From positions 310,001 through 374,000 of the forward strand of contig NZ_JAEDAE010000004.1 in NCBI RefSeq assembly GCF_016056375.1: a stretch of DNA of 64,000 nt, in the 5' to 3' direction. The position numbers and the translations under genes were made by a program. Position 1 is the first letter of the stretch. Each line of letters opens with the position of its first letter. The stretch is from Hymenobacter negativus. Lineage in GTDB: Bacteria > Bacteroidota > Bacteroidia > Cytophagales > Hymenobacteraceae. Of this stretch, positions 19,687 through 26,918 are shown one piece after another. Below the pieces are notes generated by a model that saw only the letters and a list, made by a program, of their open reading frames with translations, had not been told where the DNA came from and did no database searches.

Positions 19687-21300
19687 CTACTTCTTGGTAG
19701 CCGGGAAATCGATGGCGCTGGTGTAGGTGCTAGCTTTGCCGAACGACTGATTGATTTCATCCACGGCGGCGCGGCTACTCAGGCGCTTGGGCTTGGTATT
19801 GAGGAAGGTACCGTCCTCCCCAACCAGCATATACGTGGGCACTTCCTGCAAAGCGTATTCCTTGGCTACCATCGAGCGCAGGCCGCCGCCGGGTACGCGC
19901 ACCTGCACGCCGGGCAGCTTTTTCACTGTCACCAGCTGCTTCCAAGCCTGCTCGTTCTCATCCAGCGCAATGTTGATGAAGGTGATGTTCTTGCCTTCAA
20001 ACTTGCGCATCAATTCCTGGGCGTAGGCTAGGTCGCGCAGACATAGACCGTTGGTGCTTTTCCAGAAGTTGAGGTACACCAGCTTGCCAGCGAAGTCGTG
20101 CAGATGCACCGTGTCGCCAGTAGCCGAGGGCAGCTTGAAATCGGGCGCCGGCGCGCCGATGGCGAAATCCTTGTGCTGATTAAAATCGGCCTGCAGGGTG
20201 GGATAATACTGATTTTTGGGGTCGTAGTTGCGGAAATCAGCCAGCATGGCCGCCGACTGCTTCACGTGCCCGAACCGGAACGACTCCTGCAGCACGCGGC
20301 CCAGAATGATGGCGCGCGACGGGCCGGAGAGCTTTTTGCTGGCCAGCGCATAGCAGGCCGGGTAAAAATCGGGGTCGGAGCGCTGGTGGTGGTCCTGGCT
20401 CACGGTGAAGTGCACGTAGTTGAGCAGAAACTCGTGGTACAGCTCGCTCTGCACGGCGTTGGGCTCGTTTAGCAGGCCCGGCTCACGCAGAAAATTGTAG
20501 TAGTCGGGGGCCATTTTCAGGCGGCCTTCGGTGTTCACCACCTGCTCGCGCAGGTCCTGGAAAGTGAGCTTATCGTTGGCGTAGGCATACACCACTTCGG
20601 CGTGGGCGTAATTGTAAAATTCCTGCGTAAACGACTGCTTGGCTGCGTGGTCCTCCAGAAACTCGTATTCGTGCTTGCGGCGGTACTCTAGGAAGGACAG
20701 GAACGGGGCTTCGTAGAGCTGGATGTTATCGGGCAGCACCTGGAAACCATCGTTTTCCACAAACTGTGCATCGGCTTCTACCAGGTAGTTGTTGGCGTTG
20801 GCGGCTTGCTGACGGTGGCGCTGCTCGTCGGTCAGGTTCGAGCGGTTGCGCAGCTTGGTAGCAAAGCCCGAAGGCACGTCGTTGGGCTTAAAGCGCAGCG
20901 TGCCCGACATATCGCTGCCCTTGAAGCGCACGTCCATGTCGGTGCCGGGGTCGAGAAACAGCGGAGCCACGTCGTCGCCGTACACGAGGTCGGCCTTGGT
21001 GGCACCGCTCACGGGCACCACTATCTTGAAATCGCCCTTGTCGTTGAGCGGCACCCGAAACAGCTTTTCCTTGGGGTCGAGCGGGTTTTCGCGCAGCGAA
21101 ACCGCCACGGAATCAGTGGTAGGGCCACTCACCCGGCCGGTGAGCGTAGCCGTGCCCGCCGAGGTAGCAGCCGCAACCGCAGCCGTTTTTGCGGCAGCAC
21201 CCACCACCGTGGTTCGGCCCTGGGCGTGCCCCAGCAGCGGGGCCAAAACCAAAGCCGCTCCGACCAGCCGGCGCGCACAAGTGACGAAAGATAATTTCAT
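19687..21300 (-). CDS. TlpA-like thioredoxin-fold protein with degenerate active site
   Basis: A 537-residue exported protein. The signal peptide (RRLVGAALVLAPLLGHAQG) is followed by about 340 residues of beta-rich then helical sequence and a C-terminal TlpA/AhpC-like thioredoxin domain: APDFKLPSATGDTVHLHDFA, GKLVYLNFWKSTNGLCLRDL and EVPTYMLVGEDGTFL (the cis-Pro strand). Family members normally have CxxC after FW; here FWKSTNGLC keeps only the second cysteine. It should not be able to do standard dithiol exchange. The layout resembles Bacteroidota cell-envelope proteins with DUF4369-like N-termini. Substrate or partner unknown. Confidence 0.85.
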   Translation of the reverse strand: MKLSFVTCARRLVGAALVLAPLLGHAQGRTTVVGAAAKTAAVAAATSAGTATLTGRVSGPTTDSVAVSLRENPLDPKEKLFRVPLNDKGDFKIVVPVSGATKADLVYGDDVAPLFLDPGTDMDVRFKGSDMSGTLRFKPNDVPSGFATKLRNRSNLTDEQRHRQQAANANNYLVEADAQFVENDGFQVLPDNIQLYEAPFLSFLEYRRKHEYEFLEDHAAKQSFTQEFYNYAHAEVVYAYANDKLTFQDLREQVVNTEGRLKMAPDYYNFLREPGLLNEPNAVQSELYHEFLLNYVHFTVSQDHHQRSDPDFYPACYALASKKLSGPSRAIILGRVLQESFRFGHVKQSAAMLADFRNYDPKNQYYPTLQADFNQHKDFAIGAPAPDFKLPSATGDTVHLHDFAGKLVYLNFWKSTNGLCLRDLAYAQELMRKFEGKNITFINIALDENEQAWKQLVTVKKLPGVQVRVPGGGLRSMVAKEYALQEVPTYMLVGEDGTFLNTKPKRLSSRAAVDEINQSFGKASTYTSAIDFPATKK

Positions 21301-23843: not shown

Positions 23844-25244
23844 ATGGCTATTTCTACTACGCTCACCACCGCCGACCTCTCCACCATCACCGCCTTCGCC
23901 GGCCTGCCCGCCGATACGCTGGCCTGGCTGATAGCGCACGGCGAAGGCCGCACCTATGCCGCCGGCGAAACCATTTTCGAGCCCGGGGCACCCGCCGAAT
24001 TTATGACGGCGGTGGTGCAGGGCGGTATTCAATTCTACGCCGTGAAGGGTGCCCAGCACGACCCAATATTCCGGATTGATACCGCCCAGGTATCCGGGGT
24101 GCTGCCCTACTCGCGCCTTCGCATCATTGCCGGCCAGGGCGTGGCGGCCGGCGAAACGGTACTCTACCTGCTGCACCGCGACCATTTCCCCGCCCTGGAG
24201 CAAACCAGCCCCGAACTGGTGCAACGCTTGGTGGGCATCATGAACGACCGCAGCCGCGACCAGGTGCGCGGCCAGGAGCGCGACGACAAGCTGCGCGCCT
24301 TGGGCAAGCTCTCGGCCGGCCTGGCCCACGAGCTGAATAACCCCGCCGCCGCCATTGCCCGCGCCGCCCAGGCCCTGGCCAACCGCGTGGGGGCCAAGCC
24401 AGCGCTGTTTGTGGAGCTGGTGAGCCACTGCCCTTCGCCCGAAGCCATGCTGGCCCTCACCGGCTTGGCCGTGCCCAGCGCCGAGGCCCAGCCCCCGCAA
24501 AGCGCCCTGGCCCGCGCTGACCGCGAAGACGAGCTGGCCGACTGGCTCGCATCGCACAACGTGCCCAATGGCTACCACCTGGCCCCGGCTCTGCTCGAAG
24601 CCGGCGTGACGCCCGCCGCCCTGGCCACCGTGGCCGATTTACTGCCGCCCGCCGCCCGCCCGGCCGCGTTTGCCTGGCTTGAAGGCCAGCTCACCACCAT
24701 GCAGCTGGTGCACGATGTGCAGGAAGCCGGCAGCCGCATCAGCAAGCTGGTGTCCGATGTGAAAACTTACTCGCACATGGACCGGGCCAGCGGTTTCGAG
24801 CCCATTGACGTCACTGCTGGCCTAGAAAGCACGCTCAACATCCTGGGCTTCCAGCTGCGGCAGAAGAATATTCGGGTTGTCCGCGATTTCGCGTCCGGCC
24901 TGCCGTCCATTCGCGGGCAGGTGAGCAGCCTCAACCAGGTGTGGACCAATCTACTTGATAACGCCATTGATGCACTGCCCGCGCAGGGCGGTGAAATTAC
25001 CATCCGCACCCAGCGGGAAGGCGGCTTTGTGCGCGTATTTTTGATTGACAACGGCACCGGCATCCCGGCCGACGTGCTGCCGCACATCTTCGAGCCCTTC
25101 TTTACCACCAAGCAGGCCGGCGACGGCTCCGGGCTGGGCCTCGATATTGCGCAGCAGATTATCCGCCAGCACAACGGCCGGCTGGAAGTCCATTCCGAAC
25201 CCGGCCGCACCGAATTCTGCGCTTGGCTGCCAGTCGCTAATTAA
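23844..25244 (+). CDS. Sensor histidine kinase with N-terminal cyclic-nucleotide-binding-type domain
   Basis: A 466-residue soluble histidine kinase. Residues 1-130 resemble a CRP/cNMP-binding beta-roll (LPADTLAWLIAHGEGRTYAA, GETIFEPGAPAEFMTAVVQG). The His box is LSAGLAHELNNPAAAIARAA with phospho-acceptor His162. After a long helical insertion come the N box (QVWTNLLDNAIDALP), DNGTGIP and GDGSGLGLDIAQQI. No transmembrane segment is seen, so it senses an internal signal. It lies 15 bases before the receiver/thioredoxin reductase fusion and is very likely its kinase. Confidence 0.9.
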   Translation: MAISTTLTTADLSTITAFAGLPADTLAWLIAHGEGRTYAAGETIFEPGAPAEFMTAVVQGGIQFYAVKGAQHDPIFRIDTAQVSGVLPYSRLRIIAGQGVAAGETVLYLLHRDHFPALEQTSPELVQRLVGIMNDRSRDQVRGQERDDKLRALGKLSAGLAHELNNPAAAIARAAQALANRVGAKPALFVELVSHCPSPEAMLALTGLAVPSAEAQPPQSALARADREDELADWLASHNVPNGYHLAPALLEAGVTPAALATVADLLPPAARPAAFAWLEGQLTTMQLVHDVQEAGSRISKLVSDVKTYSHMDRASGFEPIDVTAGLESTLNILGFQLRQKNIRVVRDFASGLPSIRGQVSSLNQVWTNLLDNAIDALPAQGGEITIRTQREGGFVRVFLIDNGTGIPADVLPHIFEPFFTTKQAGDGSGLGLDIAQQIIRQHNGRLEVHSEPGRTEFCAWLPVAN

Positions 25245-25259
25245 CTCAGCCCTTCCATC

Positions 25260-26918
25260 ATGCCCGACAAAAAACCCATAATCCTCGCTGTTGATGACGA
25301 CCCGCAAGTGCTGGCCGCCATTGCCCGCGACCTGCGCCAGGAGTTCAGCGAGGACTACCGCATTCTGCGCGTGAACTCCGGCCCCGAGGCGCTCACGACC
25401 GTTAAGGAGCTGCACGAAAAGGAAGAGCCGCTGGCCCTCATCGTGGCAGACCAGCGCATGCCCGAGCTAGAAGGCGTGGAGCTGCTTACGGCTTCGCGCG
25501 AGTTTTTTCCCGATGCGAAGCGCGTGCTGCTCACAGCCTACGCCGATACCGAAGCCGCCGTGCGCGCCATCAACTCGGCCCGGCTCGACCACTACCTGAT
25601 GAAGCCCTGGGACCCGCCCGAAAATCTGCTTTATCCGATTCTGCACGATTTGCTCACTGCCTGGCAGGTCACGCACAAGCCCAAGTTTGGCGGCATCCGG
25701 CTCATCGGTTTTCAATGGTCGCCGCTCTCGCACGAACTCAAGGATTTCCTGAGCGGCTACATGGTGGGCTACCAGTGGCTCGACTACGAAACCAACCCCG
25801 AAGCCAAAGAGTTAGTAAAAGCCCGCGGCTTCACCTCTAGTGACTTACCACTGATTATCTGCGCCGACGGCAAAGCCGTGGCCAACCCCACCAAAACCGC
25901 CCTGGCCGAGCACCTGAACATCGCCAACCAACCCCTGCAGGACCTGTACGACGTGGTGGTGGTGGGCGCCGGGCCGTCTGGGCTGGCCGCTGCCGTGTAC
26001 GGGGCCAGCGAAGGCCTCAAAACCCTCATCGTGGAGCGGCAGACGCCCGGCGGGCAGGCCGGCACCAGCTCGCGCATCGAAAACTACCTGGGCTTCCCCA
26101 CCGGCCTGAGCGGGGCCGAGCTGGCTTTCCGCGCCTGGACCCAGGCCGTGCGCCTCGGGGCCGAGTTTCTGGCACCGCAGGAAGTGGCCGACCTCTGCAT
26201 TCAGGACGGCTACAAAGTCCTGACCCTGAGCGACGGCCGCGAAATCAGCACCAAAGCTGTGGTCCTCACTACCGGCGTGAGCTACCGCACCCTCGACGTG
26301 CCCGGCATGGAGCGCCTGAGCGGCGCGGGTGTGTATTATGGCGCGGCCCGCACCGAAGCCCGCAGCTGCGACGAGCAGGACGTGTACATTGTGGGCGGCG
26401 GCAATTCGGCCGGGCAGGCAGCCATGTACCTGGCCACCTACGCCCGCAAGGTGTTCATCGTCATTCGCGGCGCCAATTTGGCTGCCAGCATGTCGGCGTA
26501 TCTTATTGAGCAGATTCGTACTACGCCCAATATTGAGCTTTTGCCGCATTCCCAAATCAAGGAAGCCTGCGGCCAGGACCACCTCGAAGCCGTGATGGTA
26601 GACGTGAACGGGACCGTCGAAAAACGCCCGGCTCGCGCCTTGTTTGTTTTCATCGGCGCCAAACCCAGCACCGAATGGATTTGCGACCAGGTGTTGTGCG
26701 ACGGCAAGGGCTTCCTTCTCACCGGCCGCGACCTCGTGACTGACCCGCGCTACGCCGAAGTATGGAAAAAAGACCGGGAGCCTTACTTGCTCGAAACCTG
26801 CGTACCCGGCATTTTCGCAGCTGGTGACAGCCGCGCCGGGGCTATGGCCCGCGTAGCCTCCGCCGTGGGCGAGGGCAGCATGGCCATCAAGTTTGTGCAC
26901 CAGTACCTAGACGAGTAA
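25260..26918 (+). CDS. Response regulator fused to a thioredoxin reductase-like flavoprotein
   Basis: A 552-residue three-part protein. Residues 1-130 are a receiver domain (AVDDDPQVLAAI, Asp64 in IVADQRMPEL, LMKPWD). Residues about 140-220 look like a glutaredoxin-type fold without a cysteine pair (IRLIGFQWSPLSHELKDFL). From residue about 228 on is a thioredoxin reductase-like FAD/NADPH unit: VVVGAGPSGLAAAVYGASEG, GGQAGTSSRIENYLGFPTGL, IVGGGNSAGQAAMY and GIFAAGDSRAGAMARVASAV. The usual CxxC redox site is missing: the equivalent stretch reads YYGAARTEARSC. The output is therefore probably an NAD(P)H-dependent redox activity controlled by phosphorylation, using the kinase 15 bases upstream. 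Confidence 0.88.
   Translation: MPDKKPIILAVDDDPQVLAAIARDLRQEFSEDYRILRVNSGPEALTTVKELHEKEEPLALIVADQRMPELEGVELLTASREFFPDAKRVLLTAYADTEAAVRAINSARLDHYLMKPWDPPENLLYPILHDLLTAWQVTHKPKFGGIRLIGFQWSPLSHELKDFLSGYMVGYQWLDYETNPEAKELVKARGFTSSDLPLIICADGKAVANPTKTALAEHLNIANQPLQDLYDVVVVGAGPSGLAAAVYGASEGLKTLIVERQTPGGQAGTSSRIENYLGFPTGLSGAELAFRAWTQAVRLGAEFLAPQEVADLCIQDGYKVLTLSDGREISTKAVVLTTGVSYRTLDVPGMERLSGAGVYYGAARTEARSCDEQDVYIVGGGNSAGQAAMYLATYARKVFIVIRGANLAASMSAYLIEQIRTTPNIELLPHSQIKEACGQDHLEAVMVDVNGTVEKRPARALFVFIGAKPSTEWICDQVLCDGKGFLLTGRDLVTDPRYAEVWKKDREPYLLETCVPGIFAAGDSRAGAMARVASAVGEGSMAIKFVHQYLDE

Follow-up and report, generated by a model that had tools for sequence, protein, structure and literature searches.

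A CxxC-less, thioredoxin reductase-like response regulator of Hymenobacter negativus with a possible role in phosphorylation-controlled electrophile reduction

The 64,000-nucleotide stretch of Hymenobacter negativus DNA analyzed here (contig NZ_JAEDAE010000004.1, positions 310,001 to 374,000; hereafter the window) encodes a soluble histidine kinase and, 15 bases downstream on the same strand (+), a response regulator in which a receiver, a glutaredoxin-like and a thioredoxin reductase (TrxR)-like flavoprotein domain are fused. The TrxR-like part has lost its CxxC motif, the phosphorylation residues of the receiver are complete, and genes linked to the fusion recur in its relatives. We propose that the fusion may be a phosphorylation-controlled NAD(P)H:electrophile reductase, chiefly of quinones, which acts with a zf-UBP protein in defense against electrophiles and quinones. 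This proposal is tentative, and we give it a probability of roughly 0.4. An electrophile reductase under phosphorylation control, acting chiefly on quinones, is the most economical reading.

Results

Gene pair, domains and loss of CxxC

The positions, strand and gap given for the two genes in the initial annotation are all exact (Table 1), and the nearest large open reading frames (ORFs) on both sides of the pair lie on the opposite strand. Conservation was assessed in two sets of aligned proteins. The first holds 81 rows, i.e., the window and the best 80 of 175 relatives (43 from Hymenobacter and 37 from elsewhere), and the second holds 74 rows, i.e., the window and 73 loci from the genome survey below. 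The closest homologues among the relatives found are 96-97% identical and come from Hymenobacter genomes. A kinase gene lies within 800 bp of the fusion gene in 42 of the 43 Hymenobacter loci and 32 of the 37 others.

A CxxC after residue 140 is found in none of the rows (0/81 and 0/74). Its place is taken by a conserved replacement, with Tyr360 in 81/81 and 74/74 rows, Gly361 in 81/81, and Glu366 in 81/81 and 72/74; Glu366 aligns with the Asp that follows CxxC both in the genome's own TrxB and in the TrxR structure 4zn0. The loss that had been noted for this single protein thus holds family-wide. Conservation of the replacement rules out that an ordinary TrxR has decayed here, and a role as the housekeeping TrxR is ruled out by a separate, ordinary TrxB with CAVC encoded in the same genome. 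The fusion does not reach the cut-offs of the models for thioredoxin-disulfide reductase (TIGR01292, 207.7 bits vs. 343.45), AhpF (TIGR03140, 141 vs. 502.9) or the bacillithiol disulfide reductase YpdA/Bdr (TIGR04018, 63.8 vs. 339.9). A search of both row sets for a conserved hidden cysteine pair found none, nor any invariant cysteine. Cys370 of YYGAARTEARSC is present in 50/81 and 52/74 rows, including every row of the type with a cyclic nucleotide-binding (cNMP) domain, and is Phe in the rows of family f23. Since Cys370, Cys480 and Cys514 each occur in 44 to 50 of the 81 rows, a lineage-specific pair in the fusion is possible as far as the alignment can tell.

Pfam recognizes the receiver (Response_reg, 4.8e-15) and the flavoprotein part (Pyr_redox_2, 4.3e-32). 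The receiver residues Asp13, Asp64 and Thr92 are present in 81/81 rows, and Lys115 in 44/44. The predicted strand-helix order of the middle part fits a glutaredoxin, and its family profile matches the mycobacterial glutaredoxin Rv3198.1 (1.1e-10). Pfam Glutaredoxin was found at E≤0.1 in 10 of 18 family members, and the same test gave no match for the window's own stretch. The only cysteine of this part, Cys201, is shared by 21 of the 81 rows. The three parts originally described are confirmed, as is the absence of a cysteine pair from the glutaredoxin-like part. The accompanying view that the sites for flavin adenine dinucleotide (FAD) and NADPH are intact holds for the FAD motif and the NAD(P)H Rossmann glycines, but not for the choice of cofactor: the HRR of 4zn0 is IRG in the window (Arg403 in 81/81 rows, then Gly in 70/81), so that the sequence does not imply that NADPH is preferred.

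The structure prediction called for in the initial annotation (mean predicted local distance difference test, pLDDT, 87; predicted template modeling score, pTM, 0.63) keeps the TrxR-like flavoprotein fold, while the pTM makes the placement of the domains uncertain. Thioredoxin reductases match the flavoprotein part of the model at Z 26-34 among the rows listed, and TrxR-like ferredoxin-NADP reductase entries rank below them in both sequence and fold comparisons. The model fits Lactococcus lactis TrxR to 3.4 Å in the flavin-reducing entry 5mh4 and to 5.8 Å in the flavin-oxidizing entry 5mjk. For E. coli TrxR the values are 3.6 Å for 1f6m, which we take to be flavin-reducing, and 6.2 Å for 1trb and 1tde, presumably flavin-oxidizing. 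The predicted structure is hence closer to the flavin-reducing than to the flavin-oxidizing entries of the same protein.

Table 1. Features of the kinase-response regulator pair (window coordinates).
Feature	Position	Strand	Basis
Soluble histidine kinase gene, 466 aa	23844..25244	+	ORF, Pfam, kinase alignment
N-terminal cNMP-fold sensor, GVLPYSR replacing CRP phosphate-binding cassette	23844..24263	+	Profile and CRP alignment
Phospho-acceptor His162, H-box AHELNNP	24327..24329	+	Same residue in all 30 kinases of the alignment
84-residue helical insertion between the two DHp (dimerization and histidine phosphotransfer) helices of the model	24396..24647	+	Model, Pfam, alignment
HATPase_c catalytic domain	24921..25238	+	Pfam
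Response regulator fusion, 552 aa	25260..26918	+	ORF, Pfam, model
Receiver domain	25260..25673	+	Pfam, alignments
Phospho-acceptor Asp64	25449..25451	+	81/81 rows
Glutaredoxin-like domain without cysteine pair	25683..25925	+	Model, family profile, Pfam of members
TrxR-like flavoprotein domain	25941..26918	+	Pfam, structure comparison
FAD motif GAGPSG	25965..25982	+	G236, G238, G241 invariant in alignment
YYGAARTEARSC replacing CxxC	26334..26369	+	Y360, G361, E366 in 81/81 rows
NAD(P)H motif GGGNSA	26394..26411	+	Sequence, alignment

Family distribution

The body made up of the glutaredoxin-like and flavoprotein domains was found at E≤1e-80 in 45 of 296 Bacteroidota and 29 of 299 Pseudomonadota genomes. 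There are 76 survey loci, three of which (L122, L130 and L131, from zf-UBP genomes without the flavoprotein at this threshold) give no row; L098 is a genome's own TrxB region, and the neighbors of genome G280 and of two of the three copies in G555 were left out. The body is preceded by a receiver in 40 of the 73 loci, by a cNMP domain in 29 and by nothing in 3, with one locus left unassigned. By phmmer, a kinase is encoded within 7.5 kb in 38 of the 40 receiver-type loci and in 0 of the 29 cNMP-type loci; a looser BLAST clustering places an ORF of two cNMP loci in the kinase cluster. This survey of co-occurrence, which had been suggested as a check, finds the body to be widespread, with a kinase near most of its receiver-type copies. 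In a 78-row tree, from which L051 and 12 similar f23 rows were omitted, the 5 labels require 4 changes, the minimum possible, and the window falls inside a 22-row set of receiver (REC) proteins only (100/99). The distribution of receivers and cNMP domains, the proximity of the kinase and the tree together indicate that the same body is governed in some loci by a fused cNMP domain and in others by a receiver and kinase, the latter here with a cNMP-fold sensor. Database records list these proteins as thioredoxin-disulfide reductase or FAD-dependent oxidoreductase.

Gene context in relatives

The zf-UBP domain, familiar mainly from the ubiquitin system of eukaryotes, is strongly linked to the flavoprotein in the two phyla sampled and on Actinomycetota plasmids; its structure matches include solved human relatives. 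Among the Bacteroidota, zf-UBP (PF02148, over the cut-off) occurs in 31 of 296 genomes, 28 of which also have the flavoprotein, i.e., in 28/45 genomes with the flavoprotein vs. 3/251 without it (Fisher p 3e-24). Counted by genus, the figures are 16/29 vs. 3/110 (p 1e-10). The two genes are within 6 kb of each other in 21 of the 28 Bacteroidota genomes having both. All ten zf-UBP genomes among the 299 Pseudomonadota have the flavoprotein, each time at most 1.6 kb away, and on a Streptomyces plasmid and in Devosia the receiver-flavoprotein, kinase and zf-UBP genes stand in a row. A zf-UBP stretch accompanies 14 of the 37 non-Hymenobacter loci of the first set and 0 of its 43 Hymenobacter loci; in the window genome, zf-UBP is found on another contig. 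Antiporter-like ORFs were seen by eye in L122, L130 and L131, and zf-UBP may therefore be tied to the antiporter as well.

The link to a Kef-type antiporter is moderate and involves four families (f23, f29, f41 and f44). An antiporter of PF00999 lies within 7.5 kb of the flavoprotein gene in 20 of the 45 Bacteroidota genomes vs. 0.53 expected (128 matches), and in 9 of 29 genera vs. 0.37 expected. Both antiporters tested carry TrkA_N, as in the Kef-type arrangement, and for one of them the best NCBIfam model is KefC (1e-40, below the cut-off). In three loci (L119:3267-5315 by Pfam; L120:5575-7602 and L121:6668-8701 by coinciding coordinates) zf-UBP forms the C-terminus of a Kef-type antiporter, the gene for which adjoins those for the kinase and the receiver-flavoprotein. 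A PF00999 match in the window genome (C13:202275-203344) is divided into two adjacent parts, which could reflect a split or frameshifted gene.

The link to MhqO is narrow, as it is confined to one family. An MhqO-like dioxygenase and a PF02230 carboxylesterase are encoded in 13 of the 73 loci, all of family f23. The one dioxygenase tested (L123) matches MhqO (3oaj) at 2.1e-67 and a dichlorohydroquinone dioxygenase at 1e-34, and the esterase matches phospholipase/carboxylesterase at 2.1e-56, its kinship to MhqD being by family name only. In L123:2364-9645 and L125:1806-8916, genes for the dioxygenase, PF02230 esterase, Kef-type antiporter, a DsbA-like protein, zf-UBP, kinase and receiver-flavoprotein occur together. 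An old yellow enzyme (best model NamA, below the cut-off) is found in one short-type locus, and a short-type flavoprotein has as its neighbor an ORF (L124:2777-4009) that begins with a Cys-rich stretch and contains a VRR_NUC nuclease domain. A Rhodococcus plasmid (L089:60-6344) carries genes for a J-domain protein, cbpM, clpB, trxA, zf-UBP and a cNMP-type flavoprotein, a run that suggests a heat-shock or proteotoxic stress setting.

Kinase and its sensor

The kinase matches HATPase_c at 6.7e-26, whereas HisKA (8.3e-6) falls just below its cut-off and cNMP_binding (0.0014) below its own. The kinase model (pLDDT 87, pTM 0.58) has a long helix (123-184), five short helices and a second long helix (269-310). 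The residues between the long helices (185-268) form an insertion that is also found in kinases of other phyla and in which Glu228 is invariant in 30 kinases (alignment without L001, L047 and L088). This insertion has no Pfam match at E≤0.2, with MOZART1 at 0.24; it could be a docking or a second sensing element.

The N-terminus had been described as a cNMP-type sensor. Its fold is confirmed by profile, with PF00027 at E≤0.1 in 10 of 10 chosen rows (8 from Hymenobacter) and a match of the family profile to CRP at 2e-9, although the window sequence alone is below the Pfam cut-off. The residues that bind cyclic AMP (cAMP) in CRP are missing, however. The alignment to CRP places GVLPYSR at the position of Gly-Glu-Leu and gives the Arg-Ser pair no counterpart, while G-x-L-P-x-S-R is invariant across the 10 chosen rows. 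In CRP, the Glu and the Arg-Ser residues take part in cAMP binding, and as these residues of the phosphate-binding cassette are replaced, we judge cAMP to be an unlikely signal for the kinase. The kinase sensors of other phyla, compared by eye on the alignment, have either more usual cNMP cassettes, as in the Devosia-type sensors (L051), or unrelated N-termini, and in L068 the kinase opens with a receiver-like segment. In 11 of the 37 non-Hymenobacter loci, including six of Devosia type, a cyclase-like ORF is encoded close to the pair. In L079:2760-5996 and ten further loci the ORF is class III cyclase-like, and in L079 its best NCBIfam model is the TOMM kinase/cyclase, below the cut-off.

Rfam gave no match in the window, and a promoter and terminator scan gave a signal no higher than in shuffled sequences. 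Elsewhere in the window, 19687-21300 on the minus strand encodes a thioredoxin-family protein, TlpA-like by eye, with NGLCLRD and no CxxC in its motif region.

Discussion

Proposed function and alternatives

In the proposed mechanism, the cNMP-fold domain of the kinase, its cAMP cassette lost, would sense some intracellular signal, and the kinase would pass a phosphoryl group to Asp64 of the fusion. Phosphorylation may then shift the receiver and glutaredoxin-like domains and thereby switch the flavin reductase on (or off). The output would be an NAD(P)H-dependent FAD reductase that passes electrons from the flavin straight to a small electrophilic acceptor, for which a quinone is the likeliest candidate, with Tyr360 and Glu366 probably close to the flavin. 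Such a system could provide Hymenobacter with a fast post-translational defense against electrophile or quinone stress, possibly also against sulfane sulfur. Its partners would be a zf-UBP protein and, in part of the lineages, a Kef-type K+/H+ antiporter. The quinone assignment agrees with KefF, a quinone reductase containing flavin mononucleotide (FMN) that is needed for full KefC activity (PMC10224563), and with the mhqRED operon (mhqE/mhqD), which responds to methylhydroquinone in Staphylococcus aureus, and MhqA/E/O and quinone reductases, which respond to quinones in Bacillus subtilis (PMC6798810). The literature covered, which does not extend to older reviews, gave no account of a reaction catalyzed by the REC-TrxR class and no link of zf-UBP to the family; the accessible parts of PMC13421787, PMC8945050, PMC5459824 and PMC9025218 hold nothing on the class.

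Several points weigh against this proposal, chief among them the published reduction of thioredoxin by a likely relative. This is ATII-TrxR, which has 552 residues and a cNMP domain and is reported to bind FAD, to accept both NADPH and NADH, and to reduce 5,5'-dithiobis(2-nitrobenzoic acid) (DTNB) and thioredoxin; the cysteines named are Cys206-Cys223 and Cys376-Cys467, with no CxxC named in the part of the paper available (PMC6544261). The cNMP-type protein of L146 has the same length and a cysteine at 376, so ATII-TrxR is likely a cNMP-type member of the family, tied to it by description and not by its sequence. The chromid copy of Cupriavidus metallidurans CH34 has no two cysteines three apart, and its spacing agrees only partly with the four cysteines named for ATII-TrxR. 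Further, SCO7298 (trxB3) is induced by hydrogen polysulfide, and quinones go unmentioned in the available part of that report (PMC9952706). The flavoprotein also occurs without zf-UBP (17/45 Bacteroidota and 19/29 Pseudomonadota genomes), and the MhqO/MhqD-like pair is found only in f23, bar one MhqD-like ORF near L062. Within about 6 kb of the Hymenobacter pairs, zf-UBP, Kef, MhqO and MhqD are found in 0 of 43 loci (four with shortened flanks), and the role in Hymenobacter therefore rests on homology. Finally, the structure 5w4c, titled FO (flavin-oxidizing), also fits the model, at 3.3 Å. The original view of a phosphorylation-controlled flavin redox activity without dithiol exchange is accordingly upheld only in part: the receiver is complete, the flavin fold kept and the CxxC lost, but reduction of DTNB and thioredoxin has been reported for a likely relative.

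The kinetics of ATII-TrxR could mean that the family still reduces disulfides, with electrons passing from FAD to thioredoxin or a low-molecular-weight disulfide either directly or via lineage-specific cysteines (in Hymenobacter, Cys370 with Cys480 or Cys514). Both named cysteine pairs are drawn as redox centers by the authors (PMC6544261), Cys370 is shared by the rows counted above, the Kef-associated L119, L120, L121 and L183 among them, and trxA adjoins a cNMP-type relative in Rhodococcus. On the other hand, neither set has an invariant cysteine, position 370 is Phe in the f23 rows associated with Kef, and the ATII protein was, we remark, produced in E. coli, a host with its own TrxR; on balance, we regard disulfide reduction as unlikely. 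The sulfur acceptor might instead be sulfane sulfur (polysulfide or persulfide), reduced to H2S at the flavin. The induction of trxB3 by hydrogen polysulfide, which is also seen without AdpA, is consistent with this, whereas in the accessible part of the same report trxB3 is not among the genes named as overexpressed for H2S release (PMC9952706), and such a reaction seems very unlikely to us.

The links to zf-UBP and Kef can also be read as those of a mainly regulatory subunit, in which the NAD(P)H/FAD state and phosphorylation set the binding to zf-UBP or to the Kef-type antiporter and turnover is secondary. The fusion of zf-UBP to the antiporter in L119, L120 and L121 fits such a role, as does the finding that point mutations which abolish KefF activity do not prevent activation of KefC (PMC10224563). 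Yet a PF00999 gene is absent from the surrounding 7.5 kb in 25 of the 45 Bacteroidota genomes, and phmmer found a Kef match in 0 of the 29 Pseudomonadota loci, the looser clustering placing an ORF of one locus in the antiporter cluster. We therefore find a mainly regulatory role improbable. The proposed electrophile reductase could be extended to the whole family, as a quinone reductase switched by phosphorylation or by a ligand that works with zf-UBP and, in several lineages, with Kef. This would be a second, unrelated solution to that of KefF-KefC, with two-component control acting on a detoxifying enzyme directly and not via transcription; we consider this wider claim rather doubtful.

To our knowledge, few response regulators have a metabolic-type enzyme as output. 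The label thioredoxin-disulfide reductase is given to these proteins though the defining cysteines are absent. Should the proposed electrophile reduction prove true, a large set of labels would be wrong, and flavin chemistry would be under the direct control of a kinase. The zf-UBP link offers an entry to the role of bacterial zf-UBP genes.

Comparison with known systems

The likeness that we propose to KefF-KefC of E. coli is functional: in some relatives, a soluble NAD(P)H flavoprotein is likewise encoded beside a Kef-type antiporter. KefF has a flavodoxin-like fold. It is an FMN protein like QR1/QR2 (PMC10224563), and an antiporter is found near the Hymenobacter pair in 0 of 43 loci. AhpF, the first Foldseek match (4o5q), resembles the window fusion in having a thioredoxin-fold part ahead of a TrxR-like part, but the fusion has a single glutaredoxin-like domain without a cysteine pair, a receiver in front, and no CxxC. 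The low-Mr TrxB shares the FAD and NAD(P)H domains and the fold, while the fusion differs in its lack of CxxC, in IRG instead of HRR (4zn0) and in an extra stretch before the C-terminal FAD motif. The cyclic nucleotide-binding domain-containing thioredoxin-disulfide reductases named by the Prokaryotic Genome Annotation Pipeline (PGAP) have the same glutaredoxin-like and CxxC-less TrxR-like body and zf-UBP neighbors. They differ in that a cNMP domain is fused in place of the receiver and a kinase is nearby in 0 of 29 loci.

The statement in the initial annotation that similar fusions exist is borne out by published work. The TrxB-class response regulators, such as SCO7298 with its kinase SCO7297, likewise combine a receiver with a TrxR-like output and an adjacent kinase (PMC9739842), and the 'Mycobacterium-like combination' (PMC5847659) has the same receiver-TrxR architecture. 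We found no architectural difference from the TrxB class in a comparison made via the Streptomyces plasmid homologue P0005 and not SCO7298; the window fusion has the complete receiver, the adjacent kinase and a place in the tree among the REC-type members. The architecture is thus already described as the 'TrxB' class of response regulators, and what the present analysis adds is its gene context.

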